DNA of 21,795 bases, taken from positions 1 through 21,795 of IMG/VR virus record IMGVR_UViG_3300048549_001648; one strand, written 5' to 3'. The translations under genes were made by a program, and so were the position numbers. A model generated the notes under the pieces. That model was not told where the DNA came from. It did no database searches and saw only the letters and a list, made by a program, of their open reading frames with translations. This DNA comes from a virus. Shown piece after piece: positions 10,889 to 21,795 of this stretch; the first letter of the stretch is position 1, and each line of letters opens with the position of its first letter.

Positions 10889-12811
10889 TTATACTGGTGT
10901 ACCGTAACGGCCATCTTGGTGATTTGCGTGAAGATTCGCGCCGCCGTTATGTCCATTTCCCCTGACAATGCAGCCGTCCCCATCAGAAATAGTAATAGTT
11001 GTGTTTGGTTGAACCGAAGTCCTGTCCCCAAACTTTGTATCGCCATCAGATGTGAGACTTAAATTACCCCCGCTCTTGTTGAGTATCGTGCAGTGCCATC
11101 CGATGCCGTAATTGCCATCAAAGGTCAATGTACTGCACCCAGGACAAGCCACAATCAGTTTTCCTATATCGTTTACGGTTACGCCAGAATTAGCGGTTAA
11201 CTCAACACCTTGCATTCTTGTTGATTGCAAGAGTTGAAGCTCTCCGTTGTCTTTTACATAAAGACTTCCGCTTGCGGTGTCGAGAAGCATCTGCCCGCTA
11301 TCTACATAATCGTGAATGGTTCTGCCTTGGGGATCTGGAGTCCATGCTCCATTGTTCCATACCCATGTCGTTCCTGACTCTACGTCAAATACCATATTAT
11401 TGATCGTTGGGTCAGGTTTAGGGTTAAGGGATAATCCTCCCTGAGTCACTCCGTTGAACATTAAATCGCCCCAAGAGCATGCACCTTGTGACGCTGCAAC
11501 AAGACCCCAGTTACCTGGGGTTTGAAACTCATTTAACCTGGCATCAACGTTTAAGTCTATATCAAAAACAGGATTTCCCCAGTCTGCTGAATCCCAACTT
11601 GGAGCAGTAGATACATCGTCAATAGCCCAAATTCTAACTCTGTTTGGCCTTCTTTCTATTTTTACAGGACATCCGTTATAAGCGCTCCAACCTGCTCCTC
11701 CTGTAGAATTAGCGAAAGCTTCACTAAATGTACCCGCAGGTGCCGATGCTATAGTAACTCCAGTAGGGAGCGCCTGATTGTAAACAAATCTAAAACCACC
11801 TCCTACATTCAAATTTCTGTAAACTATAAGGGTTGAATCTAGGGGGCTCTGTGAATCAATATCCGCAGGGTTGCCACGATTTAATGCTATGACAAACCCG
11901 ATCATGTCATCATCGCGTCCAGTAGATTTTAAAACAATCGTTGCGTCGTAAGTATCATAAACTTCATCAGGAGGACTGGCAAACCCAATCCAAAAATTAC
12001 TATTTATCCCCTGGGTAATTTCATTGCTTGCATTTAAGGTCCAACCACTTTCTTCGGCTCGCGTAGTGGTTGTCAAGCTGCCAACGTTGCCAGTAGTCCA
12101 TCCAAATGAACGTCCAATATGATTTCCGCATGAGCTTGTGCCGTCATCGATAAGAGGGTTGGTAGTGTAAAAAGGGTCATTAAATAGATAATTGTACTGG
12201 TCTGTACCCATGTTGTTATTCGCAACTGTTCCGTGTGAAAATCTATAAAAATCAGTAAGTATACGTTGAAAGCTAGCAGCCGTTCTTTGTTCAGAACTAG
12301 CCTGACCAAAATTCACAAGCTGGGTTCTCTCTGCGGCAGAAGCTTTAATGAGTAATTTCTTTGCAGAAACGTCTGTTGTTCCCAGACCGTCATACATTAA
12401 ATGCTCTCCGTCATTTGTGGAAGTCGGAAGGGCTAATAATGGTTGGCCGTTAACTGTTGGCGGGCTTTGGTAAGTTACGGTTGTTCCAGGGGTGTTGTTT
12501 ATATTATTTATTGATGTGGTTAATGCACTCTGAACCGCTGGAATAGTTGTTATAGCTGTTGACACTTGAGTATTAAATGAATCCTGCACACCTGTATCGC
12601 TTGATATGGCTGTTGATAGCTGTGTATTAAAAACATCTTTGACATCATTACTGTTCGATATCGCTATTCTAACAAGATCCTCTGAGGTTACAGCGACAAG
12701 CGTGTCAACAGAATTGACTCCTATAATTTTTGTAGAATTATTAGCTACACCTACTGGGATATCAAGAGATCCATCTCCATCGCTATCAGTCGAAAGTCTT
12801 TTCCACATCAC
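10889..12811 (-). CDS. Tail-fibre-like protein, paralogue B
   Basis: About 640 residues. It begins GTG ATG TGG AAA AGA; the GTG at 12811 aligns with the GTG start of the paralogue upstream, the ATG at 12808 is the alternative. Residues about 45-105 hold degenerate repeats (NTQLSTAISSDTGVQDSF-type), likely a trimeric fibrous stalk. Residues about 110-200 are nearly identical to the paralogue (VNGQPLLALPTS, then AAERTQLVNFGQASS). The middle (about 210-445) is diverged and includes VYDTYDATIVLKSTGRDDDM, a ConA-lectin-like strand pattern. The last 190 residues are again near-identical (SLNPKPDPTINNMVFDVESG). A receptor-binding role is the natural inference. Confidence 0.8.
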   Translation of the reverse strand: MMWKRLSTDSDGDGSLDIPVGVANNSTKIIGVNSVDTLVAVTSEDLVRIAISNSNDVKDVFNTQLSTAISSDTGVQDSFNTQVSTAITTIPAVQSALTTSINNINNTPGTTVTYQSPPTVNGQPLLALPTSTNDGEHLMYDGLGTTDVSAKKLLIKASAAERTQLVNFGQASSEQRTAASFQRILTDFYRFSHGTVANNNMGTDQYNYLFNDPFYTTNPLIDDGTSSCGNHIGRSFGWTTGNVGSLTTTTRAEESGWTLNASNEITQGINSNFWIGFASPPDEVYDTYDATIVLKSTGRDDDMIGFVIALNRGNPADIDSQSPLDSTLIVYRNLNVGGGFRFVYNQALPTGVTIASAPAGTFSEAFANSTGGAGWSAYNGCPVKIERRPNRVRIWAIDDVSTAPSWDSADWGNPVFDIDLNVDARLNEFQTPGNWGLVAASQGACSWGDLMFNGVTQGGLSLNPKPDPTINNMVFDVESGTTWVWNNGAWTPDPQGRTIHDYVDSGQMLLDTASGSLYVKDNGELQLLQSTRMQGVELTANSGVTVNDIGKLIVACPGCSTLTFDGNYGIGWHCTILNKSGGNLSLTSDGDTKFGDRTSVQPNTTITISDGDGCIVRGNGHNGGANLHANHQDGRYGTPV

Positions 12812-12813
12812 TG

Positions 12814-14817
12814 TTAGGTCCCATAGTCGCCTTGAGAGGTAGTCACATGGATATTTGCACCGCCGTTATGCCCATTTCCGTAACATTTCGCCTCCCTTGA
12901 ATTGCCAAGGTTAATTTCTGTACGACCTGGGCCGAGGAGGTCTCCGAATCTTGTTACACCAGAGGTATCAAGGGTTATGGTGCCTCCACTCTTGTTCAGC
13001 ACCGTACAATGCCATCCGATGCCGTAATTGCCATCAAAAGTCAACGTGCTGCACCCAGGGCCAGCTATAATCAGTTTTCCTATGTCATTTACCGTTATGC
13101 CAGAATCAGCGGTTAGCTCAACACCTTGCATTCTTGTTGATTGCAAGAGCTGAAGCTCCCCGTTATCCTTTACATAAAGACTTCCGCTTGCGGTGTCGAG
13201 AAGCATCTGCCCGCTATCTACATAATCGTGAATGGTTCTGTTTTGGGGATCTGGAATCCATGCTCCATTGCTCCATACCCATGTCGTTCCTGACTCTACG
13301 TCAAATACCATATTATTGATCGTTGGGTCAGGTTTAGGGTTAAGAGATAGCCCACCTTCGTTTACACCGTTAAAAAGTAAATTAGCCCAGCTGCAGTCTC
13401 CCTGGGACGATGCAACAAGACCCCACCTGGCAGGCTCTCTAAATTTAGCTAAAGTTGCAGCGCTTACTCCGTTATTTGCCACAGTTAGATCCACACTAAT
13501 ATAATTACCAGCATCCCAACTTGGGTCATCAAGTGGAGGAGGCTGTGCTACGTTTTGAATAAGCCAAACCTCGATAAGGTCTCGGCTTCTTTTAAATTTT
13601 ATAGCATCTCCGTTTGGATTTAGGGTACTCCAGCCAGTTCCATTAGGATATGTTCCAGTACTGTCCCAAGCTAATATTACTTGATCATCTTGTTGTAAAT
13701 TATAAACTATTGAAAATTTTTGAACACTAGGAGCTTGCGCACCTATAGTATGATTACCAATTTCATTTGTTCTAATAACACTAATCGTCTCGTCGCCTAT
13801 TGCGTTTCCGTTTTCATCAGTTTGGCATAAGCATAAAACAAATCCCAAAAGATCATTGTCGGGATCACTACTCCTAAGCAATATACTTCCTTCATATGTA
13901 TCATAAAGGATTTGGCTAGCAAAGCCTAGCGCCCCAGTCCAATTAATTGGCTGAGTCAAATTGTTGTTGTTATCAATTACCCACGCTTGCTCGAGATTTC
14001 TAGTCCTGGCCATGAAAAAGCTGTCACCAGGGGTTAGGTTATATGCTGCAATCCCGTTAACCGAGAATCGATCTCCATCTATTCTGGTGACTGTAAACGA
14101 TTGTCCTGTAAGTAATGGAGCTGGAATATCCGATCCGCTAAACGTGACTGTTTGTCCAGTTAGCAAACCATGGTTTGTTAAAAAAAGGGTTGCTCCACCT
14201 ATATTATTGTGGGCTATTCTATCACTAACATTAACAGCTGTCCCTGCATGATCGTTACCACCATTATGACTAAACCTATAGAAATTATCAAGTATTTCCT
14301 GAAAACTAGCAGCCGTTCTTTGCAGAGAACTAGCCTGACCAAAATTCACAAGCTGGGTTCTCTCTGCGGCAGAAGCTTTAATGAGTATTTTTTTTGCAGA
14401 AACGTCTGTTGTTCCCAGACCGTCATACATTATATGCTCTCCGTCATTTCTGGAAGTCGGAAGGGCTAATAATGGTTGACCGTTAACTGTCGGTGGGTTT
14501 ACATAAGTTACAGTTGTGCCCGCTTGGTTGTTTACATTATTTATTGATGTCGTTAGCGAAGTTTGAACTCCCGCATCATTCGTGATTGCGTTTGAAACTT
14601 GAGTATTAAAAGAATTTTGAACAGTAGCATCATTCGTAATCGCAGTTGAAACTTGTGTGTTAAAAGCATTTTTTACGGTATTACTATTAGATATTGCTTC
14701 CTGTACTACATCTTCTCCTACTACAGTAGTAACTACGTCAGCAGCAGTTATCGCCAACATTTTGTTGGAGTTTATAGCGGTAGACGCGACAATATCCTTT
14801 AGTCTTTTCCAGCTCAC
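12814..14817 (-). CDS. Tail-fibre-like protein, paralogue A
   Basis: 667 residues, starting with GTG at 14817 whose GTGA overlaps the stop of the gene before. It has the same plan as its neighbour: repeat-rich stalk (NSFNTQVSNAITNDAGVQ repeats, about 40-95), a conserved block (about 105-190), a variable middle and a conserved C-terminal block. The variable middle carries an extra domain (LFLTNHGLLTGQTVTFSG, then FTVTRIDGDRFSVNG) of the kind inserted in many phage fibres, followed by the lectin-like ILYDTYEGSILLRSSDPDND. Two bases separate its stop from the GTG of paralogue B. It is likely a component of the host-recognition apparatus; which copy is used is not visible. Confidence 0.8.
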   Translation of the reverse strand: MSWKRLKDIVASTAINSNKMLAITAADVVTTVVGEDVVQEAISNSNTVKNAFNTQVSTAITNDATVQNSFNTQVSNAITNDAGVQTSLTTSINNVNNQAGTTVTYVNPPTVNGQPLLALPTSRNDGEHIMYDGLGTTDVSAKKILIKASAAERTQLVNFGQASSLQRTAASFQEILDNFYRFSHNGGNDHAGTAVNVSDRIAHNNIGGATLFLTNHGLLTGQTVTFSGSDIPAPLLTGQSFTVTRIDGDRFSVNGIAAYNLTPGDSFFMARTRNLEQAWVIDNNNNLTQPINWTGALGFASQILYDTYEGSILLRSSDPDNDLLGFVLCLCQTDENGNAIGDETISVIRTNEIGNHTIGAQAPSVQKFSIVYNLQQDDQVILAWDSTGTYPNGTGWSTLNPNGDAIKFKRSRDLIEVWLIQNVAQPPPLDDPSWDAGNYISVDLTVANNGVSAATLAKFREPARWGLVASSQGDCSWANLLFNGVNEGGLSLNPKPDPTINNMVFDVESGTTWVWSNGAWIPDPQNRTIHDYVDSGQMLLDTASGSLYVKDNGELQLLQSTRMQGVELTADSGITVNDIGKLIIAGPGCSTLTFDGNYGIGWHCTVLNKSGGTITLDTSGVTRFGDLLGPGRTEINLGNSREAKCYGNGHNGGANIHVTTSQGDYGT

Positions 14818-16032: not shown

Positions 16033-16221
16033 ATGGATAAAGGAATTGAACTAATCAAAAAAGTTAAAGCCGACATCGCCCGATGCACCGAAATCGTGCG
16101 CGAGTCAAATGACATCTACATGGTGCAAAATGCCGCGCTGATGATCAAGGAAAATCAACGTTGGCTTGCAGAATGGGATTTGCAAAACAAGATCGCAATG
16201 AGCAACAACGTAAAGAAATAA
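16033..16221 (+). CDS. Small helical protein, unknown
   Basis: 62 residues, mainly helical and charged (IELIKKVKADIARCTEIVRE, then MIKENQRWLAEWDLQNKI). No family recognised. It is the first gene of the rightward array, with a promoter positioned so that transcription would begin at the A of its ATG and with no Shine-Dalgarno site. A T-tract follows about 10 bases after the stop and runs into the next promoter. Codon use is clearly less AT-biased than in the left half. Confidence 0.65.
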   Translation: MDKGIELIKKVKADIARCTEIVRESNDIYMVQNAALMIKENQRWLAEWDLQNKIAMSNNVKK

Positions 16222-16457: not shown

Positions 16458-16522
16458 TGGTCTTTGAACTATTCGCTTTCGCCATCATATCAATCATAAT
16501 AGTAGGAAATCACAACAAATGA
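16457..16522 (+). CDS. Hydrophobic micro-ORF (21 residues)
   Basis: MVFELFAFAIISIII then VGNHNK: one predicted membrane helix with a short polar tail. Its ATG overlaps the preceding TAA (TAATG) and its TGA overlaps the ATG of the next gene (ATGA). No Shine-Dalgarno site is present; translation would rely on re-initiation. An equivalent 25-residue ORF with the same double overlap sits at 19551-19628, which makes chance less likely. Confidence 0.45.
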   Translation: MVFELFAFAIISIIIVGNHNK

Positions 16523-16827
16523 GAAAAGTAACCCAACGAATCAAGGACGCCTTCGAGCAAGGCAAATCTTTAAAAGTCGGCAATACCGAGACAGACGGGC
16601 AAACCGTTTGGCTACATGGTAATGCCATCGTCAAGCGTGACGGGTGGGGCGTGATTGAGTGGTCGCTTGCAGGTTGGAACACACCCACCACACGCGAACG
16701 CATCAACGGCATCACGGGCGCAGGCGTCCATCAAGTCAAATTCGAGCCTGTCCTAAATGGTGAAGTCATTGACTCATCCGATTGGCACTTTTGCAATCAA
16801 AAGTTGCCCGATCCTCTCGTGATCTAA
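16519..16827 (+). CDS. Conserved small phage protein (TDGxxxWLHGN family)
   Basis: 102 residues. NTETDGQTVWLHGNAIVKRD, then GWNTPTTRERINGITGAGVH and a following F...LNGE segment match a pattern I recall in many small proteins of marine and other phages (NTxTDGxxLxLHGNxI...GWxxxTTxERLNGLPGV). Its function is not known. The fold is probably a small beta-rich domain. It is the last gene before repeat element R1, which begins 1 base after the stop. Its ATG overlaps the stop of the micro-ORF. Confidence 0.85.
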   Translation: MRKVTQRIKDAFEQGKSLKVGNTETDGQTVWLHGNAIVKRDGWGVIEWSLAGWNTPTTRERINGITGAGVHQVKFEPVLNGEVIDSSDWHFCNQKLPDPLVI

Positions 16828-16828
16828 G

Positions 16829-16921
16829 TTGGCGCGGTACTTGAACGCCGCTTTCACAAGCCGTTGAGTATCAGGTACTTGCGGCGCGGGGGCGCTGTAA
16901 GTCGTTGATATGCAACAACTT
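16829..16921 (+). repeat. 64-base dyad element R1 (with 29-base extension)
   Basis: Core 16858-16921: AAGCCGTTGA/TCAGGTACTT inverted repeat, GC-rich centre GCGGCGCGGGGGCGCTGT, then AAGTCGTTGA/GCAACAACTT. The extension 16829-16857 carries GGCGCGGTACTTGAACGCCG, almost identical to that of R4. It starts 1 base after the stop of the preceding gene. No T-run follows. Confidence 0.9.
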
Positions 16922-16952
16922 ATGACAAAATGAAAAAAAGTGAAAAAAAAGT

Positions 16953-16981
16953 TTGCAATTAGCTCTGCAACGTGGTACCTT
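16953..16981 (+). promoter_or_regulatory. Leaderless-type promoter P3
   Basis: TTGCAA, 17 bases, TACCTT, 5 bases, ATG at 16987. Poly-A stretches precede it instead of poly-T. Confidence 0.6.
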
Positions 16982-16986
16982 TAGGT

Positions 16987-17133
16987 ATGTTAAATAAGAA
17001 AATACAACAATTCATTCAAGACAATGGTCTTGAGCGTATCCAAGCAAGCCCAATGTCCGAGGCTTTTGACCTTTGGGAATGCCCAGGGGGTCACGTTTGG
17101 ACTTTCGAGATGATCAAGCAAGCAGTAAAATAA
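16987..17133 (+). CDS. Small unknown protein (48 residues)
   Basis: MLNKKIQQFIQDNGLERI, then SEAFDLWECPGGHVWTFEMI: a short helix followed by a compact part with one Cys. No family recognised. Chosen over an opposite-strand frame because the promoter, spacing to the ATG and gene orientation all match the neighbours. No Shine-Dalgarno site is seen. The next promoter starts 12 bases after the stop. Confidence 0.6.
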   Translation: MLNKKIQQFIQDNGLERIQASPMSEAFDLWECPGGHVWTFEMIKQAVK

Positions 17134-17145
17134 TTTACTTTTTTC

Positions 17146-17174
17146 TTGCAATTCAACAGAAAATCCTTTAAGTT
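17146..17174 (+). promoter_or_regulatory. Leaderless-type promoter P4
   Basis: TTGCAA, 17 bases, TAAGTT, 6 bases (TATAAT), ATG at 17181; CTTTTTTC directly precedes the -35 box. Confidence 0.65.
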
Positions 17175-17180
17175 TATAAT

Positions 17181-17438
17181 ATGTTAAATACTTCAAATAG
17201 AAATGTCCCCACTCGGAAAGTCGAGTTCCTTAATGTGACTATGCAAGTCACTAAGAGATTCCAAGATGACCCTAGTATTGTCAAGACTCAGCGCTTGCGC
17301 TTCTCTGCTGACCTAGATCAGGAACTAGATCATGCTTTTCTCAAGTCCCATGCTGATATGGTTTTTAAGTTTTGGGACATCTTAGATGTCGAGCTTGTTC
17401 ACTCTTTCGTAGACTCAACCGATCAATACCTATACTAA
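17181..17438 (+). CDS. Small unknown protein (85 residues)
   Basis: 85 residues with a strand-like first half (RKVEFLNVTMQVTKRFQDD) and a helical second half (ELDHAFLKSHADMVFKFWDI). No family recognised. One base separates its stop from the next ATG, so the two form an operon ending at element R2. No Shine-Dalgarno site; promoter P4 would start transcription at its ATG. Confidence 0.65.
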   Translation: MLNTSNRNVPTRKVEFLNVTMQVTKRFQDDPSIVKTQRLRFSADLDQELDHAFLKSHADMVFKFWDILDVELVHSFVDSTDQYLY

Positions 17439-17439
17439 T

Positions 17440-17616
17440 ATGATAACAATAAAACAAAACCCTAACTTTACCAAGTTCTTCCAAGTGTTCGCCTTTGGGC
17501 AGTACATCGACGAAGTAGAGCGTCGTGGCAAAGCTATACGAATAGCTACCAAACTAGCCAAGCAACATAAGCAAGACTTTATCAATGTTGACGGCTCGAT
17601 GCAAAACATCTCGTAA
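17440..17616 (+). CDS. Small conserved-type phage protein (58 residues)
   Basis: MITIKQNPNFTKFFQVFAFG, then QYIDEVERRGKAIRIATKLA and DFINVDGSM. The pattern F-x-V-Y/F-x-x-G-x-x-x-D-E-V...R-A-x-x-x-A...INVDG resembles small proteins I have seen in marine phages (fold like a single strand plus helix domain). Its TAA is bases 17614-17616, and element R2 starts at 17615 inside that stop codon. Confidence 0.65.
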   Translation: MITIKQNPNFTKFFQVFAFGQYIDEVERRGKAIRIATKLAKQHKQDFINVDGSMQNIS

Positions 17617-17678
17617 GTCGTTGATAATCAGGCACTTACGGCGCCCCTGTTGCGAAAGTCGTTGATATACAGCAGCTT
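17615..17678 (+). repeat. 64-base dyad element R2
   Basis: AAGTCGTTGA/TCAGGCACTT, centre ACGGCGCCCCTGTTGCGA, AAGTCGTTGA/CAGCAGCTT. The centre is the most diverged of the plus-strand copies. It shares GTGCAATAAAATA downstream (17696-17708) with R3. Confidence 0.88.
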
Positions 17679-17721
17679 ACGCAAAAACAGGATCGTGCAA
17701 TAAAATAATCGAAAGTTTTTC

Positions 17722-17750
17722 TTGCTTTTTTAGTTTTTATATGATACCTT
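17722..17750 (+). promoter_or_regulatory. Leaderless-type promoter P5
   Basis: TTGCTT, 17 bases, TACCTT, 5 bases, ATG at 17756. The stretch ACCTTTAGGTATG is shared with P3. Confidence 0.55.
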
Positions 17751-17755
17751 TAGGT

Positions 17756-17824
17756 ATGATTAACTTAACACAAAGAGAAAAAATCCTTCTAAAATTCGTC
17801 ATTGCTAAGCAAAAAAAAGCTTGA
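17756..17824 (+). CDS. Micro-ORF (22 residues), tentative
   Basis: MINLTQREKILLKF then VIAKQKKA: basic, amphipathic, possibly one helix. It is supported mainly by having a promoter of the shared family at the right distance. Its TGA lies inside the TTGACT -35 box of the next promoter. It could be a leader peptide or no protein at all. Confidence 0.4.
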   Translation: MINLTQREKILLKFVIAKQKKA

Positions 17825-17849
17825 CTTTTGGCTAAAACTCTACTAGATT
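17821..17849 (+). promoter_or_regulatory. Leaderless-type promoter P6
   Basis: TTGACT, 17 bases, TAGATT, 6 bases, ATG at 17856. The -35 box contains the stop codon of the micro-ORF before it. Confidence 0.7.
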
Positions 17850-17855
17850 GTACTT

Positions 17856-18044
17856 ATGAATAAAACAGAAATGCTTAAAGAAATATCCATCCTCCATGAA
17901 ACCCTAAAGGACTGCGTCCTTAGTCCTGCCGACAAGGTTGCGATACGCAACGAGATCGGTGACCTGCAGGACAGGGTTGCCCTCTTGGACTTCCAAGAGC
18001 CCGAGGACATAGACTACGGATACCACGCCCAACACGACATGTGA
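17856..18044 (+). CDS. Small acidic helical protein, unknown
   Basis: 62 residues: two predicted helices (MLKEISILHETLKDCVLS and DKVAIRNEIGDLQDRVALLD) and an acidic tail (EPEDIDYGYHAQHDM). No family recognised; the helical-hairpin look is shared with the genes at 16033, 18235 and 18492, though sequence identity is too low to call them paralogues. Element R3 begins 3 bases after the stop. Confidence 0.65.
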   Translation: MNKTEMLKEISILHETLKDCVLSPADKVAIRNEIGDLQDRVALLDFQEPEDIDYGYHAQHDM

Positions 18045-18047
18045 TAT

Positions 18048-18111
18048 AAGCCGTTGAGTATCAGGTACTTGCGGCGCGGGGGCGCGGTAAGTCGTTGATA
18101 TAGAGCAACTT
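18048..18111 (+). repeat. 64-base dyad element R3
   Basis: AAGCCGTTGA/TCAGGTACTT, centre GCGGCGCGGGGGCGCGGT, AAGTCGTTGA/AGCAACTT. The first 36 bases are identical to the R1 core. It lies directly after the preceding gene. Confidence 0.9.
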
Positions 18112-18173
18112 ACGAAAGCCCTGTACAGATACCATGCCAACCCATGCGGTAGTATTGTGCAATAAAATAGTTG

Positions 18174-18195
18174 AAGAAAAAGTTCGCTTTTTCTT
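18174..18195 (+). terminator. UUCG-loop hairpin, terminator-like
   Basis: AAGAAAAAG-TTCG-CTTTTTCTT: a perfect 9-bp stem with a UUCG tetraloop and a U-rich 3' arm, ending at the -35 region of the next promoter. It would end transcripts coming through R3. Confidence 0.55.
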
Positions 18196-18223
18196 GGTTT
18201 GCGTGCTATATTGTATTTATAAA
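18194..18223 (+). promoter_or_regulatory. Promoter before 18235 (not clearly leaderless)
   Basis: TTGGTT, 18 bases, TATAAA, 11 bases to the ATG at 18235. TTGCGT at 18199 with AAAGTT (16-base spacing) is an alternative closer to the family pattern. The least clear member. Confidence 0.4.
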
Positions 18224-18234
18224 GTTAAGATAAT

Positions 18235-18438
18235 ATGAGTTCATTCAAAATCAAATCCCGTATCAAAGAAGTAAACGCCAAGCTTGCCCAAGCTACCGAC
18301 TCGCAAGAGATCGCCCAACTGAAGAACGATCTTCAGGAGTGGAAGAACATTCTGCATGATGTCCAAATGCAAGAGTTTGAGGATCAAGTCGGCTTCAAGT
18401 CAATGGAGCAAAACGCAGGCGTTTGGGACGAACGCTAA
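18235..18438 (+). CDS. Small coiled-coil protein, unknown
   Basis: 67 residues, almost entirely heptad-like helix (KSRIKEVNAKLAQATDSQEI, AQLKNDLQEWKNILHDVQ) with an acidic end. No family recognised. The next promoter starts 16 bases after its stop, without a 64-base element between. Confidence 0.65.
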   Translation: MSSFKIKSRIKEVNAKLAQATDSQEIAQLKNDLQEWKNILHDVQMQEFEDQVGFKSMEQNAGVWDER

Positions 18439-18454
18439 AAAAGCAAAAAAAAGT

Positions 18455-18483
18455 TTGCAATTACCCAAAAACTAGTTTAAATT
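18455..18483 (+). promoter_or_regulatory. Leaderless-type promoter P8
   Basis: TTGCAA, 17 bases, TAAATT, 8 bases, ATG at 18492, preceded by poly-A. Confidence 0.65.
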
Positions 18484-18491
18484 AAATACAT

Positions 18492-18668
18492 ATGATAAAA
18501 GAAATCCAAGAAAAAATAAAAAGAACTCACGAGCGAATCGCTGATTGGAACGCCTTACGCGACCATTCTAAAATGGGAGTCCATTATGTAGATATGCAAT
18601 TGCAATGGGAGCATGACCGACTTACCCGATTAGAGCACAAGCTCGATTCCCTAATCTCTTCACTATAA
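18492..18668 (+). CDS. Small coiled-coil protein (58 residues), unknown
   Basis: MIKEIQEKIKRTHERIADWN, then a helix VDMQLQWEHDRLTRLEHKLD: an antiparallel helical pair by appearance. No family recognised. Seven bases separate its stop from the next ATG, so the two should share a transcript. No Shine-Dalgarno site. Confidence 0.6.
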   Translation: MIKEIQEKIKRTHERIADWNALRDHSKMGVHYVDMQLQWEHDRLTRLEHKLDSLISSL

Positions 18669-18675
18669 ACGACTT

Positions 18676-18825
18676 ATGTATATACTAAAATCCATTCTCA
18701 ACCAAGCGGGCGCCGTTTGGACAGTTGAAAGCATCGCCATGCGCAAGCGTGACGCAGAGCGCCTTTACCGAAGGCGTCAAGCCGAAAGTGACGGCTCACG
18801 CCGTTACGGGCTTTTCTCGGTCTAA
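18676..18825 (+). CDS. Small very basic protein (49 residues), unknown
   Basis: MYILKSILNQAGAVWTVESI, then AMRKRDAERLYRRRQAES: a hydrophobic start followed by an Arg-rich helix, which could bind nucleic acid. No family recognised. The last gene before R4, whose extension starts 1 base after the stop. Confidence 0.6.
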   Translation: MYILKSILNQAGAVWTVESIAMRKRDAERLYRRRQAESDGSRRYGLFSV

Positions 18826-18826
18826 A

Positions 18827-18919
18827 TTGGCGCGGTACCTGAACGCCGCTTTCATAAGTCGTTGAGTATCAGGCACTTGCGGCGCGGGGGTTGCGTAAGT
18901 CGTTGATAGTCAATAACTT
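18827..18919 (+). repeat. 64-base dyad element R4 (with 29-base extension)
   Basis: Core 18856-18919: AAGTCGTTGA/TCAGGCACTT, centre GCGGCGCGGGGGTTGCGT, AAGTCGTTGA/TCAATAACTT. The extension 18827-18855 repeats that of R1 with only a few changes, and both start 1 base after a stop codon. Confidence 0.9.
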
Positions 18920-18935
18920 AGATCAAAAGCAGACC

Positions 18936-18956
18936 AAGGCCCGCCCGCCTTTTATT
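18936..18956 (+). terminator. Possible intrinsic terminator after R4
   Basis: AAGGC-CCGCCC-GCCTT followed by TTATTT: a short 5-bp stem with a modest T-run. Confidence 0.4.
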
Positions 18957-18986
18957 TGGCTTACTTGTATTTATCGTTGAATTAAT

Positions 18987-19015
18987 TTGACATAAGCCCG
19001 CAATAACGTTACTTT
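18987..19015 (+). promoter_or_regulatory. Leaderless-type promoter P9
   Basis: TTGACA (consensus -35), 17 bases, TACTTT, 6 bases, ATG at 19022. Confidence 0.75.
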
Positions 19016-19021
19016 ATATAT

Positions 19022-19216
19022 ATGGAAAACGAAAATGATTCACTCGCCCGCCTCGCCCACGCCAACGGCATCACTGATGTCGAGTTTGAAGCTCGGGAGA
19101 AAGAGCTTGCCCGTCTTGCTCGCCTTGAGAAAATACTCGCTGATGTCCGTAACAGCGACGAGCCCGCCGAGATGCCCGAGGTTCACCGCAACCATGAAGA
19201 GCCTAGCTTGGACTAA
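19022..19216 (+). CDS. Small acidic helical protein, unknown
   Basis: 64 residues: SLARLAHANGITDVEFEARE, then KELARLARLEKILADVRN, a charged helix, and an acidic tail. No family recognised. GC-rich codons. Alone in its module: promoter P9, this gene, element R5. The last rightward gene; the next genes are convergent. Confidence 0.65.
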   Translation: MENENDSLARLAHANGITDVEFEAREKELARLARLEKILADVRNSDEPAEMPEVHRNHEEPSLD

Positions 19217-19231
19217 TACGACTTCTGATGT

Positions 19232-19295
19232 AAGTCGTTAATAGTCAAGCGCTTGCGGCGCGGGGGCGTCGCAAGTCGTTGATTAGCAACAACTT
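19232..19295 (+). repeat. 64-base dyad element R5
   Basis: AAGTCGTTAA/TCAAGCGCTT, centre GCGGCGCGGGGGCGTCGC, AAGTCGTTGA/GCAACAACTT. It is the only copy between convergent transcripts, so it could serve both the plus-strand gene before it and the minus-strand operon ending at 19336. Confidence 0.9.
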
Positions 19296-19335
19296 ACGAG
19301 CTTTATCTACATAATAAAGAATTAGCCCAACTTAT

Positions 19336-19554
19336 TTAAGCTATTTGCATCTCTTCCTCTTCTCCTTGCATCATAAAGAGTCTACCCTCGGGATTCCATC
19401 CCCTGTCTGAAACATCGTAAAACTCTCCACTTTTAAGATTAACCTTTAGGCAATCTTCGCTAATATATCTTTCCCCCTTCTTTTCGTTGGCAGGTTGACT
19501 ACTCTCTACGATTGCAACTTTTGCATTTGCTATTGTTGTTAATATTAGTTTCAT
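19336..19554 (-). CDS. Small unknown protein (72 residues)
   Basis: Start taken at the ATG at 19554 (MKLILTTIANAKVAIVESSQ); it overlaps the stop of the hydrophobic micro-ORF (ATGA) and has TATAAT ending 6 bases before it. A longer frame opening at a TTG at 19623 would add a hydrophobic helix in this frame, but the ATG-started micro-ORF in the other frame explains the same DNA better. The protein has a basic middle and an acidic end (MMQGEEEEMQIA). No family recognised. Confidence 0.55.
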   Translation of the reverse strand: MKLILTTIANAKVAIVESSQPANEKKGERYISEDCLKVNLKSGEFYDVSDRGWNPEGRLFMMQGEEEEMQIA

Positions 19555-19628
19555 TGTGCGATTATATCTTTCCACATAATATAAAAAACTGCCAACCAAG
19601 GCAAGAATAAAAGCATATCCCAACTCAT
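19551..19628 (-). CDS. Hydrophobic micro-ORF (25 residues)
   Basis: MSWDMLLFLPWLAVF then YIMWKDIIAQ: one membrane helix rich in Trp and Leu. Its ATG overlaps the TGA of the preceding gene and its TGA overlaps the ATG of the next gene, the same arrangement as the micro-ORF at 16457-16522. No Shine-Dalgarno site. The competing frame over the same bases (TTG start at 19623) is also hydrophobic, so the assignment is uncertain. Confidence 0.45.
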   Translation of the reverse strand: MSWDMLLFLPWLAVFYIMWKDIIAQ

Positions 19629-19891
19629 TTGTAGACCCCTTTCATTTCATCAGACAAGCCCATCTCTTGATCCTCTTCGTCAATCGACTCGGCAGAAGGA
19701 TCGTACTCGATAAGGCTAGACTCATCCTCAATATCAGACTTTTGATTCTCAAGTAATCCATGTTCGGCAAATACTTCTTCGGTTTTTACCTCAGCGATGA
19801 AGTCCTCAACTGACTGAGATGGCGCGATTGTTTGTGAGTTCTCGACTGCTTTAGCGATAACTGCGATTCTTTGTTCTTGTGTTAATTCCAT
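19625..19891 (-). CDS. Small acidic protein, unknown
   Basis: 88 residues from the ATG at 19891; the TTG nine bases upstream is not needed. A short helix (LTQEQRIAVIAKAVENSQ) leads into a very acidic region (DEESSLIE-type: QKSDIEDESSLIEYDPSAES, IDEEDQEMG). No family recognised; the charge could mean DNA mimicry or simply disorder. It has its own promoter overlapping the end of the upstream gene and is followed by the micro-ORF with an ATGA overlap. Confidence 0.65.
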   Translation of the reverse strand: MELTQEQRIAVIAKAVENSQTIAPSQSVEDFIAEVKTEEVFAEHGLLENQKSDIEDESSLIEYDPSAESIDEEDQEMGLSDEMKGVYK

Positions 19892-19898
19892 AATATAC

Positions 19899-19927
19899 AA
19901 TGTAGTTTAGTTTTGTTGATTAGTCAA
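19899..19927 (-). promoter_or_regulatory. Leaderless-type promoter Pm4
   Basis: Minus strand: TTGACT, 17 bases, TACATT, 7 bases, ATG at 19891. The TTGACTAA overlaps the last codons and stop of the gene at 19920. Confidence 0.7.
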
Positions 19928-20312
19928 GGTCTAATTCTTTTCTGAAGTCATCTCTTAATGAGTGAAGCAAGGTAACCCAAGCAAAGTCATTGAGTTGAGC
20001 TTGATGCATAAGTTGAGTAACTTGCAAAGGAGTTTGCCAACCGAGTACATCGTCAGAGACAGACAAAGGAAGCATGGTGTCTCGATCTTGAAACCACATT
20101 GCGACTTCGTAAGTGTTATCATCAATGTGACCATACAAGCCCGTTCCGTCGTTAAGGTTTTGAACAACTGAAATCGTGAATTGATCTTGATTGTCTTTGT
20201 CTCGTTGACCGAAAGTCAAGCGAGCTTGACGAGCTTTGCCTTGTGCGAATCCTCCATGTTGACCGAAAGTCAAATCATCGAAGCCTTTTAGTTTAGTATC
20301 GTTCTTAATCAT
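19920..20312 (-). CDS. Unknown phage protein (130 residues)
   Basis: The largest complete gene of the right region. It contains a duplicated LTFGQ motif (DLTFGQHGGFAQ at about 13-24 and RLTFGQRDKDNQ at about 31-42) encoded by an exact 15-base DNA repeat that is itself a hairpin. The middle is strand-like (FTISVVQNLNDGTGLYGHID, then YEVAMWFQDRDTMLPLSV) and the end helical and acidic. No family recognised. It has its own promoter with a 6-base gap to the ATG and no Shine-Dalgarno site. Confidence 0.7.
   Translation of the reverse strand: MIKNDTKLKGFDDLTFGQHGGFAQGKARQARLTFGQRDKDNQDQFTISVVQNLNDGTGLYGHIDDNTYEVAMWFQDRDTMLPLSVSDDVLGWQTPLQVTQLMHQAQLNDFAWVTLLHSLRDDFRKELDLD
20205..20273 (-). repeat. 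Two identical 15-base hairpins inside the 19920 gene
   Basis: TTGAC-CGAAA-GTCAA (plus strand) at 20205-20219 and 20259-20273. In the mRNA each forms a 5-bp stem with loop UUUCG. Confidence 0.7.
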
Positions 20313-20318
20313 ATATAT

Positions 20319-20347
20319 ACATTAGCACCATAAACCTAATAACGCAA
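20319..20347 (-). promoter_or_regulatory. Leaderless-type promoter Pm3
   Basis: Minus strand: TTGCGT, 17 bases, TAATGT, 6 bases, ATG at 20312; CTTTTTTC directly precedes the -35 box. Flanks resemble those of Pm1. Confidence 0.65.
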
Positions 20348-20379
20348 GAAAAAAGTTTAACTAAATTGCGTTTTGTTGT

Positions 20380-20443
20380 AAGTTGTTGACAGTCAAGCAC
20401 TTACGCGGCCCCCGCGCCGTAAGGCGCTGAGCATCAATGACTT
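20380..20443 (-). repeat. 64-base dyad element R6
   Basis: Read on the minus strand: AAGTCATTGA/TCAGCGCCTT, centre ACGGCGCGGGGGCCGCGT, AAGTGCTTGA/TCAACAACTT. It starts 6 bases after the stop of the minus-strand gene at 20450, with the G-rich centre on the gene's strand as in the plus-strand copies. Confidence 0.9.
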
Positions 20444-20449
20444 AGAGGA

Positions 20450-20755
20450 TTAGTAGGCTTGAATCACAAGCCCGCCATTCGCCAACTCAAGGACGAGAGT
20501 CTGATCTCTGTAGTAGTCGAGGATCTCGTCGTCCTCTTCGAGGTCTTCGTCATAAGCATAGTCTTGCTTGAGTTCTTCGAGGTCTTCATACTCTGAGAAG
20601 TCACAACAAACCGCAATCGGATCAAGCTCCATGTCAGGACTTAACTCCTCTAACATTTCAAACAAAGCCCTTCGACCTGCTACTGAGAAATTTTCCGACC
20701 TGTTGCAGTCGTCAAAAGATTTAATAAAATCAAATTCTGTAATTGTTTTAATCAT
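20450..20755 (-). CDS. Conserved acidic phage protein
   Basis: 101 residues, strongly acidic. MIKTITEFDFIKSFDDCN, then LFEMLEELSPDMELDPIAVC, CDFSEYEDLEELKQDY, and GGLVIQAY at the end match a small protein family I recall in many podo- and myoviruses of aquatic bacteria (pattern F..F......LRALFEYLEE...ELDxIAxCCxxSEYxxLEExxxDY...IIQxF). Function unknown; the charge distribution would suit a DNA mimic or inhibitor. It lies 4 bases after the 42-residue gene and is followed by element R6. Confidence 0.85.
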   Translation of the reverse strand: MIKTITEFDFIKSFDDCNRSENFSVAGRRALFEMLEELSPDMELDPIAVCCDFSEYEDLEELKQDYAYDEDLEEDDEILDYYRDQTLVLELANGGLVIQAY

Positions 20756-20759
20756 ATTC

Positions 20760-20888
20760 TTATAGGTTGCTAGTATCGTGTCCTGCTCTCCTCATTGAGT
20801 GCAAGGCTTCTTGCTTGGTCATATTGAATCGGCTCATAAGATACATAAGTAAAGTATTGCCTGTTAGTTGTTGGTTTCTATCTGTCAT
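20760..20888 (-). CDS. Small unknown protein (42 residues)
   Basis: MTDRNQQLTGNTLLMYLMSR, then FNMTKQEALHSMRRAGHD: helical, with a possible short helix-turn-helix look around KQEALHSMRRAG. Too short to classify. The promoter is the best of the family and predicts a transcript beginning exactly at this ATG. Four bases separate it from the acidic gene downstream, so both are one operon ending at R6. Confidence 0.65.
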   Translation of the reverse strand: MTDRNQQLTGNTLLMYLMSRFNMTKQEALHSMRRAGHDTSNL

Positions 20889-20894
20889 AAGTAT

Positions 20895-20923
20895 AAAATA
20901 GTTTAGTTTGGTTTAATTGTCAA
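20895..20923 (-). promoter_or_regulatory. Leaderless-type promoter Pm2
   Basis: Minus strand: TTGACA (consensus), 17 bases, TATTTT, 6 bases, ATG at 20888. The T6-C tract of the preceding terminator touches the -35 box. Confidence 0.8.
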
Positions 20924-20924
20924 G

Positions 20925-20956
20925 AAAAAAGATGAGAGCCACGGAGCCGCCCGTGG
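20925..20956 (-). terminator. Intrinsic terminator of the tRNA-like RNA
   Basis: Minus strand: CCACGG-GCGGCT-CCGTGG, then CTCTCATC and T6. The T-run ends right at the next promoter's -35 box. Confidence 0.7.
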
Positions 20957-21110
20957 TAAATGCTACCCCGTCTTACCGAGGATGTGACACTATGTGCCTA
21001 TAAGGCTTGGTACTGCACTCTCAAAATGTGAACCTCTTTCTCTCTCCCGAAGGTTGTAGGCGTGTACTGACGCCTCGTTGTTCAATGCGTTTGCATCTAC
21101 AGAAAGAGCA

Positions 21111-21227
21111 GGGGCGTGGGAGACTCGAACTCCCTTATTCAATCGCTATCCAATGATCAGTTGGTTGCGGGCTTAACATGTATACCGCACGAGGATTGAC
21201 GCATTAACCAACATATGCTAATGCCCC
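21111..21227 (-). tRNA. tRNA-like cloverleaf with interrupted anticodon loop
   Basis: Minus strand, 5' to 3': acceptor GGGGCAT / ACGCCCC (6 of 7 pairs), TA at 8-9, D arm GCAT-ATGTTGGTTA-ATGC with the GG of the D loop, anticodon stem TCAAT/ATTGA, 4-base variable loop ATAA, T arm GGGAG-TTCGAGT-CTCCC (perfect). The anticodon loop should be 7 bases but is 51 (21144-21194), holding GCGG...CCGC and CCAA-CTGATCA-TTGG hairpins. No CCA is encoded; the base after the acceptor is T. The amino acid cannot be assigned because the anticodon is split or lost. Confidence 0.6.
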
Positions 21228-21263
21228 ACAAATGAAATTGATTGTCAAAAGAACTATATAAAT

Positions 21264-21292
21264 ACAATAAACCCAAAACCTAGTAATTGCAA
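21264..21292 (-). promoter_or_regulatory. Promoter Pm1 of the tRNA-like RNA
   Basis: Minus strand: TTGCAA, 17 bases, TATTGT; predicted start about 30 bases before the tRNA-like 5' end. It shares TTGCAATTACTAGGTTTT with P1. GTTTTTTC precedes it. Confidence 0.65.
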
Positions 21293-21324
21293 GAAAAAAC
21301 TTCACTTTCTTTGCGTTTTGCGGT

Positions 21325-21388
21325 AAGTTGTTAGTAATCAAGCACTTGCGGCGCCTGGGCGCCCTAAGTCGTTGATAGTCAATGACTT
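21325..21388 (-). repeat. 64-base dyad element R7
   Basis: Read on the minus strand: AAGTCATTGA/TCAACGACTT, centre AGGGCGCCCAGGCGCCGC, AAGTGCTTGA/CTAACAACTT. The first inverted repeat is nearly perfect. It lies 66 bases after the stop of the gene at 21455, the longest gap in the family. Confidence 0.9.
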
Positions 21389-21454
21389 AGGAGATTAACT
21401 GATAAGCAAAAGTTTTACCAGGAAGCTCTTATTTGGCAAATGTTCATTTAGCCC

Positions 21455-21795
21455 CTAGACGGGTTGGAGCACTTCTTTGTAAAATAGCTCATTAACTTTG
21501 CCCTCATCGTCACGAACTTGAAATTCAAGACATTCGGCAGGGAATACATGGCAAGGGTCGTCACCATTTTGCTTGAGATACCAAGTGGGTGGATTTTGTG
21601 GCTGAACCACCAACCCGATAAACCCATGCTCGACATAATACTTGAGTACAGTTGAGCGACCAATACCATTAATCTTTACTTCGACTTCTGAGCCAACCGC
21701 AGGAAGTGGTTTGTTTGCCACCCATTGGAGTTGCTCGAACTCGGTGTAAGTCCCCTTGGGGCGTGAGATGCTTTTAGTTTCTACTAGTTCCGTTT
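21455..21795 (-). CDS. Conserved small phage protein, start outside the window
   Basis: The frame is open from the right edge to the stop at 21455, giving at least 113 residues; a GTG at 21721 is only an internal possibility and has no ribosome site. AVGSEVEVKINGIGRSTVLK, then YYVEHGFIGLVVQPQNPPTW and YLKQNG resemble a small beta-barrel (SH3/KOW-like) protein I recall in many phages (VGxxVxVxINGxGxGxVxxYxVEHGWLGV...PPxWxxKQN). Function unknown. Followed by R7. Confidence 0.75.
   Translation of the reverse strand, partial: TELVETKSISRPKGTYTEFEQLQWVANKPLPAVGSEVEVKINGIGRSTVLKYYVEHGFIGLVVQPQNPPTWYLKQNGDDPCHVFPAECLEFQVRDDEGKVNELFYKEVLQPV

Follow-up and report, generated by a model that had tools for sequence, protein, structure and literature searches.

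The window analysed here is the whole 21,795-nucleotide stretch of IMG/VR virus record IMGVR_UViG_3300048549_001648 (positions 1 to 21,795). It is a phage and encodes terminase, PhoH, a sigma factor, Hsp20 and tail proteins; the terminase was at most 28% identical to those of named phages among the matches listed, which is only a remote likeness. Among its small genes lie seven copies (R1 to R7) of a double-dyad element. A preliminary description of this DNA had claimed seven copies that align without a gap, and this was confirmed: all seven were found at the places given, and the dyad pattern, with up to three mismatches allowed, gave 28 matches in the window against a mean of 0.08 in shuffled sequence. 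Each copy measures 66 bp when the flanking T and A are counted: two imperfect dyads of 25 bp each, one on either side of a 16-nt GC core. The dyads flanking this GC-rich core are each made of two inverted arm types, YAANNNNYTGA and TCARNNNNTTR. Over 111 copies the near-invariant arm columns were Y-AA-N4-YTG and CAR-N4-TTR, the degenerate places held purines only or pyrimidines only, and the conserved start of the dyad was [TC]AAG. Exact matches to the half-site, which was said to occur four times per copy, stood mainly in the left arms of the two dyads, while the right arms differed at central positions.

R1 (16857-16922, plus strand) has its dyads at 16857-16881 and 16898-16922 around a GC core at 16882-16897; it lies 3′ of gene 16519-16827, the homologue of which in the related contigs L092, L096 and L101 likewise has an element. 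The first TAA of R2 (17614-17679, plus) is itself the stop codon of gene 17440-17616, and R3 (18047-18112, plus) begins 3 nt past gene 17856-18044, with an element standing at +2 to +5 in the homologues of L092, L104 and L102. R4 (18855-18920, plus) has a 29-nt upstream flank in common with R1 (a 108-nt repeat, 86%) and has a weak terminator-like hairpin downstream, at 18936-18951. R5 (19231-19296, plus) is situated in the convergent gap between genes 19022-19216 (plus) and 19336-19623 (minus), and R6 (20379-20444, minus) lies 3′ of gene 20450-20755 (minus), ahead of the promoter for gene 19920-20312 (minus). R7 (21324-21389) aligned best on the plus strand despite the minus-strand position of the preceding gene, 21455-21793. 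The claim that orientation tracks the strand of the gene therefore failed: R7 lies on the plus strand beside minus-strand neighbours, the element is near-palindromic, and in the relatives only 51 of 86 copies agreed with the upstream gene.

An element had been described after each small gene or operon. This was true in so far as the elements stand at the ends of transcription units, but several small genes (e.g. 16033-16221 and 18235-18438) have none. The distance from stop codon to element peaked at -3 to 10 nt (median 34 nt), the distance from element to next start was 75 nt, and some ten elements supplied the stop codon through their own TAA. Elements were present in 14 of 16 convergent gaps as against 3 of 18 divergent gaps (Fisher p 9e-5), indicating that the element belongs to 3′ ends and is able to serve two facing genes. 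A sigma70-type promoter sequence of the form TTG[AC]-N16-18-T[AT]nnnT, ending 2-14 nt before the ATG, preceded 52% of the post-element genes compared with 20% of genes elsewhere. The -10 was exactly 6 nt from the ATG in 28 of 35 post-element promoters and none of these had a Shine-Dalgarno-like site, so leaderless mRNAs are predicted. As read from the sequence, the putative promoter downstream of R1 (16953-16989, plus) has TTGCAA, a spacing of 17, TACCTT and the ATG at 16987, a leaderless-type start with the family-wide spacing; that downstream of R2 (17722-17758, plus) has TTGCTT, 17, TACCTT and the ATG at 17756. The spacer following R6 and the candidate promoter for gene 19920-20312 (20313-20378, minus) read TTTTTTCTTGCG ... 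ATGTATATATATG. Small genes of this leaderless type, with a -10 ending about 5-6 nt before the ATG and no Shine-Dalgarno site, were seen at window positions 16987, 17756 and 17856 and were numerous in L092-L104.

The absence of a T-run after the elements, on which the preliminary description had concluded that they are not ordinary terminators, was borne out. In the relatives, runs of four or more T occurred in the first 12 flanking bases at 11% of element ends, and runs of four or more A at 32%; a terminator search reported none of the window elements as a terminator. Strict intrinsic terminators in the element regions fell at element junctions in 15 of 17 cases, ahead of the element, and 61 of 76 element junctions had none. 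At one gene (gene A), terminator and element occurred together in L094, L100, L102 and L103, and the element alone occurred in the window, L092, L096 and L101. This pattern, together with the lack of the U-tract that follows the GC hairpin of an intrinsic terminator, shows that the element is no classical terminator, nor is it wholly redundant with one. The transcriptional role that remains would be insulation or a roadblock. Near-perfect C6/G6 intrinsic terminators with T7, directly past stop codons and preceding the element, were observed in L068, L092, L096, L098 and others.

The design is not confined to the window. A total of 343 matches came from terminase relatives and from scanning viral contigs with the pattern. 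Of these, 306 were unique, spread over 53 groups of uncultured phage contigs, marine and other environmental; the first form of the element scorer gave 0 matches in shuffled sequence. When 84,980 species genomes were scanned under strict settings, a single contig was returned, L104 (from a metagenome-assembled genome), which is phage-like and encodes relatives of the window small genes. In the searched contigs of 113-200 kb, exact-pattern matches were confined to a single small-gene stretch of about 4-10 kb. The profile search proposed in the preliminary description thus recovered the same design in many uncultured phage contigs but no full copy in named phages, where a single-query DNA search also yielded nothing above chance. 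With E values up to 1 allowed, no Rfam covariance model matched the element. Of 15 contigs of up to 200 kb that carry the element or are related, and that may be incomplete, none had the T4 capsid gene gp23 (PF07068); Stenotrophomonas phage DLP6 did. The double-dyad element is real and widespread, and it is apparently unreported as a boundary marker.

Comparison among the phages indicated that the element stays with its gene while its neighbours change. An element was located within 120 nt of the homologous gene in 154 of 213 homologue comparisons across phages. The neighbour gene across the element was retained in 10 of 256 cases (4%), compared with 22-26% at element-free junctions (24 of 108 where the element-free gap in the same region was at least 60 nt); outside the small-gene region, 223 of 419 adjacencies were retained. 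The cores were more alike within a phage (identity 0.78) than between phages (0.56). The strict length claimed for the element was kept within one phage, 87% of copies having the modal core length of their own phage, and was lost across phages, where the core spans 13-33 nt. Elements with unrelated cores, each of the local type, follow window gene 19022-19216 and its homologue in L096, which is 94% identical to it. L103 has four occurrences of one block, made up of an element and the roughly 85 nt that lead up to the -35, each between different genes. By this comparison, the elements mark junctions of changing gene order.

Tandem arms were met in a distant phage. The published terminator table of the T4-like phage DLP6 (PMC5349666) pointed to arm pairs, and in its genome (KU682439.2) we found 31 arms of the form AATCA[AG]NNACTTA, 28 of them forward, and 0 in the reversed control. 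The arms are paired 25 or 26 nt apart in at least 15 tandem pairs (e.g. 45310-45347, 142308-142346 and 144740-144778), and in the annotated stretch checked the pairs stand at operon ends, ahead of a -10-like sequence. DLP6 therefore shares with the present element the arm itself, the operon-end position and the promoter-like -10 that follows; it differs in that the pairs are direct 25-nt tandems that point in the sense direction, often with a GC hairpin after them, and are not inverted round a core. The arm pair was not described as a motif in the passages of the DLP6 paper that were consulted (PMC5349666). Two distant phage types appear to deploy the same 25-nt unit in different arrangements, and since the unit occurs both in gp23-less contigs and in DLP6, a host factor would be favoured as its reader. 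Tandem arms were found in seventeen further contigs. Triple tandem repeats of the ATAAATCAACGACTTA type were observed in the viral contigs L174, L176, L178-L183 and L185-L189, nearly identical in many of them; a Hymenobacter plasmid match to the DLP6 pair was set aside as probably due to chance.

The preliminary description had left open whether selection acts on shape or on a bound protein. If the element is transcribed, it could fold into a single long hairpin with bulges, by which transcripts would be ended or processed and the 3′ end shielded from exonucleases. Such a hairpin is predicted to be stable (-20 to -38 kcal/mol, z down to -9), and of 222 folds 172 had it as their minimum; the 3′-end placement, convergent gaps included, is as it would require, and at gene A the element of the window, L092, L096 and L101 occupies the place of the intrinsic terminator of L094, L100, L102 and L103. 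Core pairs 6-12 and 7-11 of the 17-nt cores also covaried (z 4.4 and 5.6), in the innermost core only. The arms, however, speak against it. When the suggested check of paired positions was run across copies, they showed no compensatory change: pair-preserving double changes in the long-hairpin arms numbered 15 as against 33 in shuffles, covariation of the dyad fold was at the shuffle level with no gain, and the central two bases of facing arms paired less than in within-phage shuffles (z -8.2 for the inner and -4.2 for the outer). The U-tract is absent, and L094, L100, L102 and L103 hold terminator and element together. We consider the hairpin explanation unlikely, though it deserves weight, and RNA structure of the arms was rejected on the absent or negative covariation. 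Selection on a fold is left unsupported and a bound protein is the better-supported alternative; the arms are retained, yet the element seems to avoid becoming one perfect long palindrome. Binding at a fixed phase, which had also been proposed, was rejected: core lengths are spread over 13-33 nt and the dyad spacing ranges from 38 to 58 bp between phages with no 10.5-bp pattern. The asymmetry of G-T versus A-C at facing positions was not used as a sign of the RNA strand, as a strong left and a weak right arm explain it equally well.

As to the protein, the arm columns over 111 copies fit the IHF consensus WATCAANNNNTTR, and single arms matched the IHF/HU-type core WATCARNNNNTTR in 19-77 of 111 cases in its full form and in 71-95 in its short form. 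We take the IHF resemblance of the arms as a lead, not as a test. Weak HU-like matches below the cut-off were discarded; the one from L106 was inspected and was unlike HU.

Among known systems, the promoter early stem-loop (PeSL) modules of T4-type phages, which are intergenic and tied to gene shuffling (PMC4503421, citing Arbiol 2010 and Comeau 2014), are similar in several respects. Both are modules between small genes that combine a 3′-end element with the promoter of the next gene, are dense in shuffling regions and recur as repeated copies at the seams; the next-gene promoter in the same intergenic module (the 52% against 20% above) and the gene shuffling (adjacency and the L103 repeats) were found here too. 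As PeSLs are described in that citing paper, the present element is set apart by lacking the terminator T-run and by its double dyad of 63-78 bp or more; moreover, PeSLs belong to T4-type phages, whereas none of the 15 contigs, possibly incomplete, had gp23. The likeness to repetitive extragenic palindromic (REP) sequences and bacterial interspersed mosaic elements (BIMEs) held up: like these and REPINs, the element is a pair of inverted imperfect palindromes which could fold as one long hairpin or two, or as a clover, and it is extragenic, multicopy and placed at gene ends, yet in a phage and not in chromosomes. It has no start of the GTAG/GGAG type, and its IHF-like pattern is inside the palindromes and not between them; bacterial BIME-1 binds IHF, and the present element resembles an IHF site. 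The element works like a PeSL and looks like a REPIN, but lacks defining features of both. In the haloarchaeal virus HGTV-1, repeated modules of inverted repeat and TATA box precede most genes of one genome half and were proposed to serve shuffling (PMC3950731); likened by description only, they share the repeated promoter plus inverted repeat and differ in being from an archaeal virus with an archaeal promoter.

The REPIN-like palindromes, the intergenic, multicopy and phage-specific types and the presence or absence of the element at homologous genes could also reflect a selfish mobile element, of REPIN or miniature inverted-repeat transposable element type, that multiplies inside phage genomes and persists at gene ends, where insertion does no harm. 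This is quite improbable: no REP-associated transposase (RAYT; Y1, PF01797) was found in 13 records, incomplete contigs included, with control genomes positive; neither a clean empty site nor a target duplication was seen; and the element is scarce in divergent gaps, limited to one small-gene region in the long contigs and retained at homologous genes across phages. One palindromic 3′-end element per module, with gene order shuffled at the elements, would also suit a site-specific recombinase site, gene and element forming a cassette as with the attC sites of integrons. Here the tyrosine integrase (PF00589) was absent from the 19 contigs searched, which are incomplete, the orientation relative to the gene is variable and no conserved asymmetric crossover motif was seen, so that we regard this explanation as highly improbable. 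IHF-type sites activate some phage promoters, and the element lies about 50-115 nt upstream of starts, where an activator site for the following promoter might be placed; but it occurs in promoterless convergent gaps, is mostly absent from divergent gaps with two promoters and abuts stop codons, and an activator role is accordingly very doubtful.

The reading that we prefer, tentatively and at a probability just short of even, is that the element is a protein-bound, bidirectional boundary of transcription units which doubles as a recombination seam and is PeSL-like in its working. A DNA-binding protein, possibly a host bending protein of the IHF/HU type, would occupy the dyads and, once bound, would block read-through from both sides, whereby the downstream leaderless unit would keep its own start. 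Near-identical copies might then act as seams for homologous recombination at which gene modules are swapped, duplicated or inverted, and such recombination would also keep the copies alike. Several results weigh against this boundary reading. A strong intrinsic terminator stands ahead of the element at 15 of 76 junctions (about 20%), so ending transcripts cannot be its sole role. The full WATCARNNNNTTR was matched by only 11 of the 28 window arms, the arm allows less variation than the IHF consensus (NNAC, and G at +2) so that another protein may be meant, and no HU/IHF gene was found above cut-off in the phage contigs searched. Besides, the adjacency counts are non-independent and the small-gene calls rough, though the difference is large.

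A wider form of the proposal is a phage-wide boundary code, in which a 25-bp protein-binding dyad, paired in unrelated phages (inverted round a GC core here, in tandem in DLP6), would insulate both ways, serve as a module-exchange seam and be read by a conserved host architectural protein; this we put forward as a possibility and think rather unlikely. Phages keep exchanging small genes, most of them uncharacterised, and how regulation survives this is an open question; here the seam is visible. The element offers a sequence handle for finding such regions, for splitting phage genomes into modules and for asking which protein reads the site, and the same arm can be tested in DLP6, which is in culture.

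Two further features of the window were recorded. Within the RNA region 20925-21240, positions 21110-21230 (minus) have a tRNA-like acceptor, D-arm and T-arm with an anticodon region enlarged to about 48 nt, and a promoter-like sequence lies ahead of it, after R7; ARAGORN and Rfam gave no match, and folding was no better than that of shuffled sequence. At 10889-14817 (minus) two tail-fibre-like genes, paralogues of each other, lie side by side and contain repeated segments of 54 nt as well as 300-nt blocks that are 87-91% identical.

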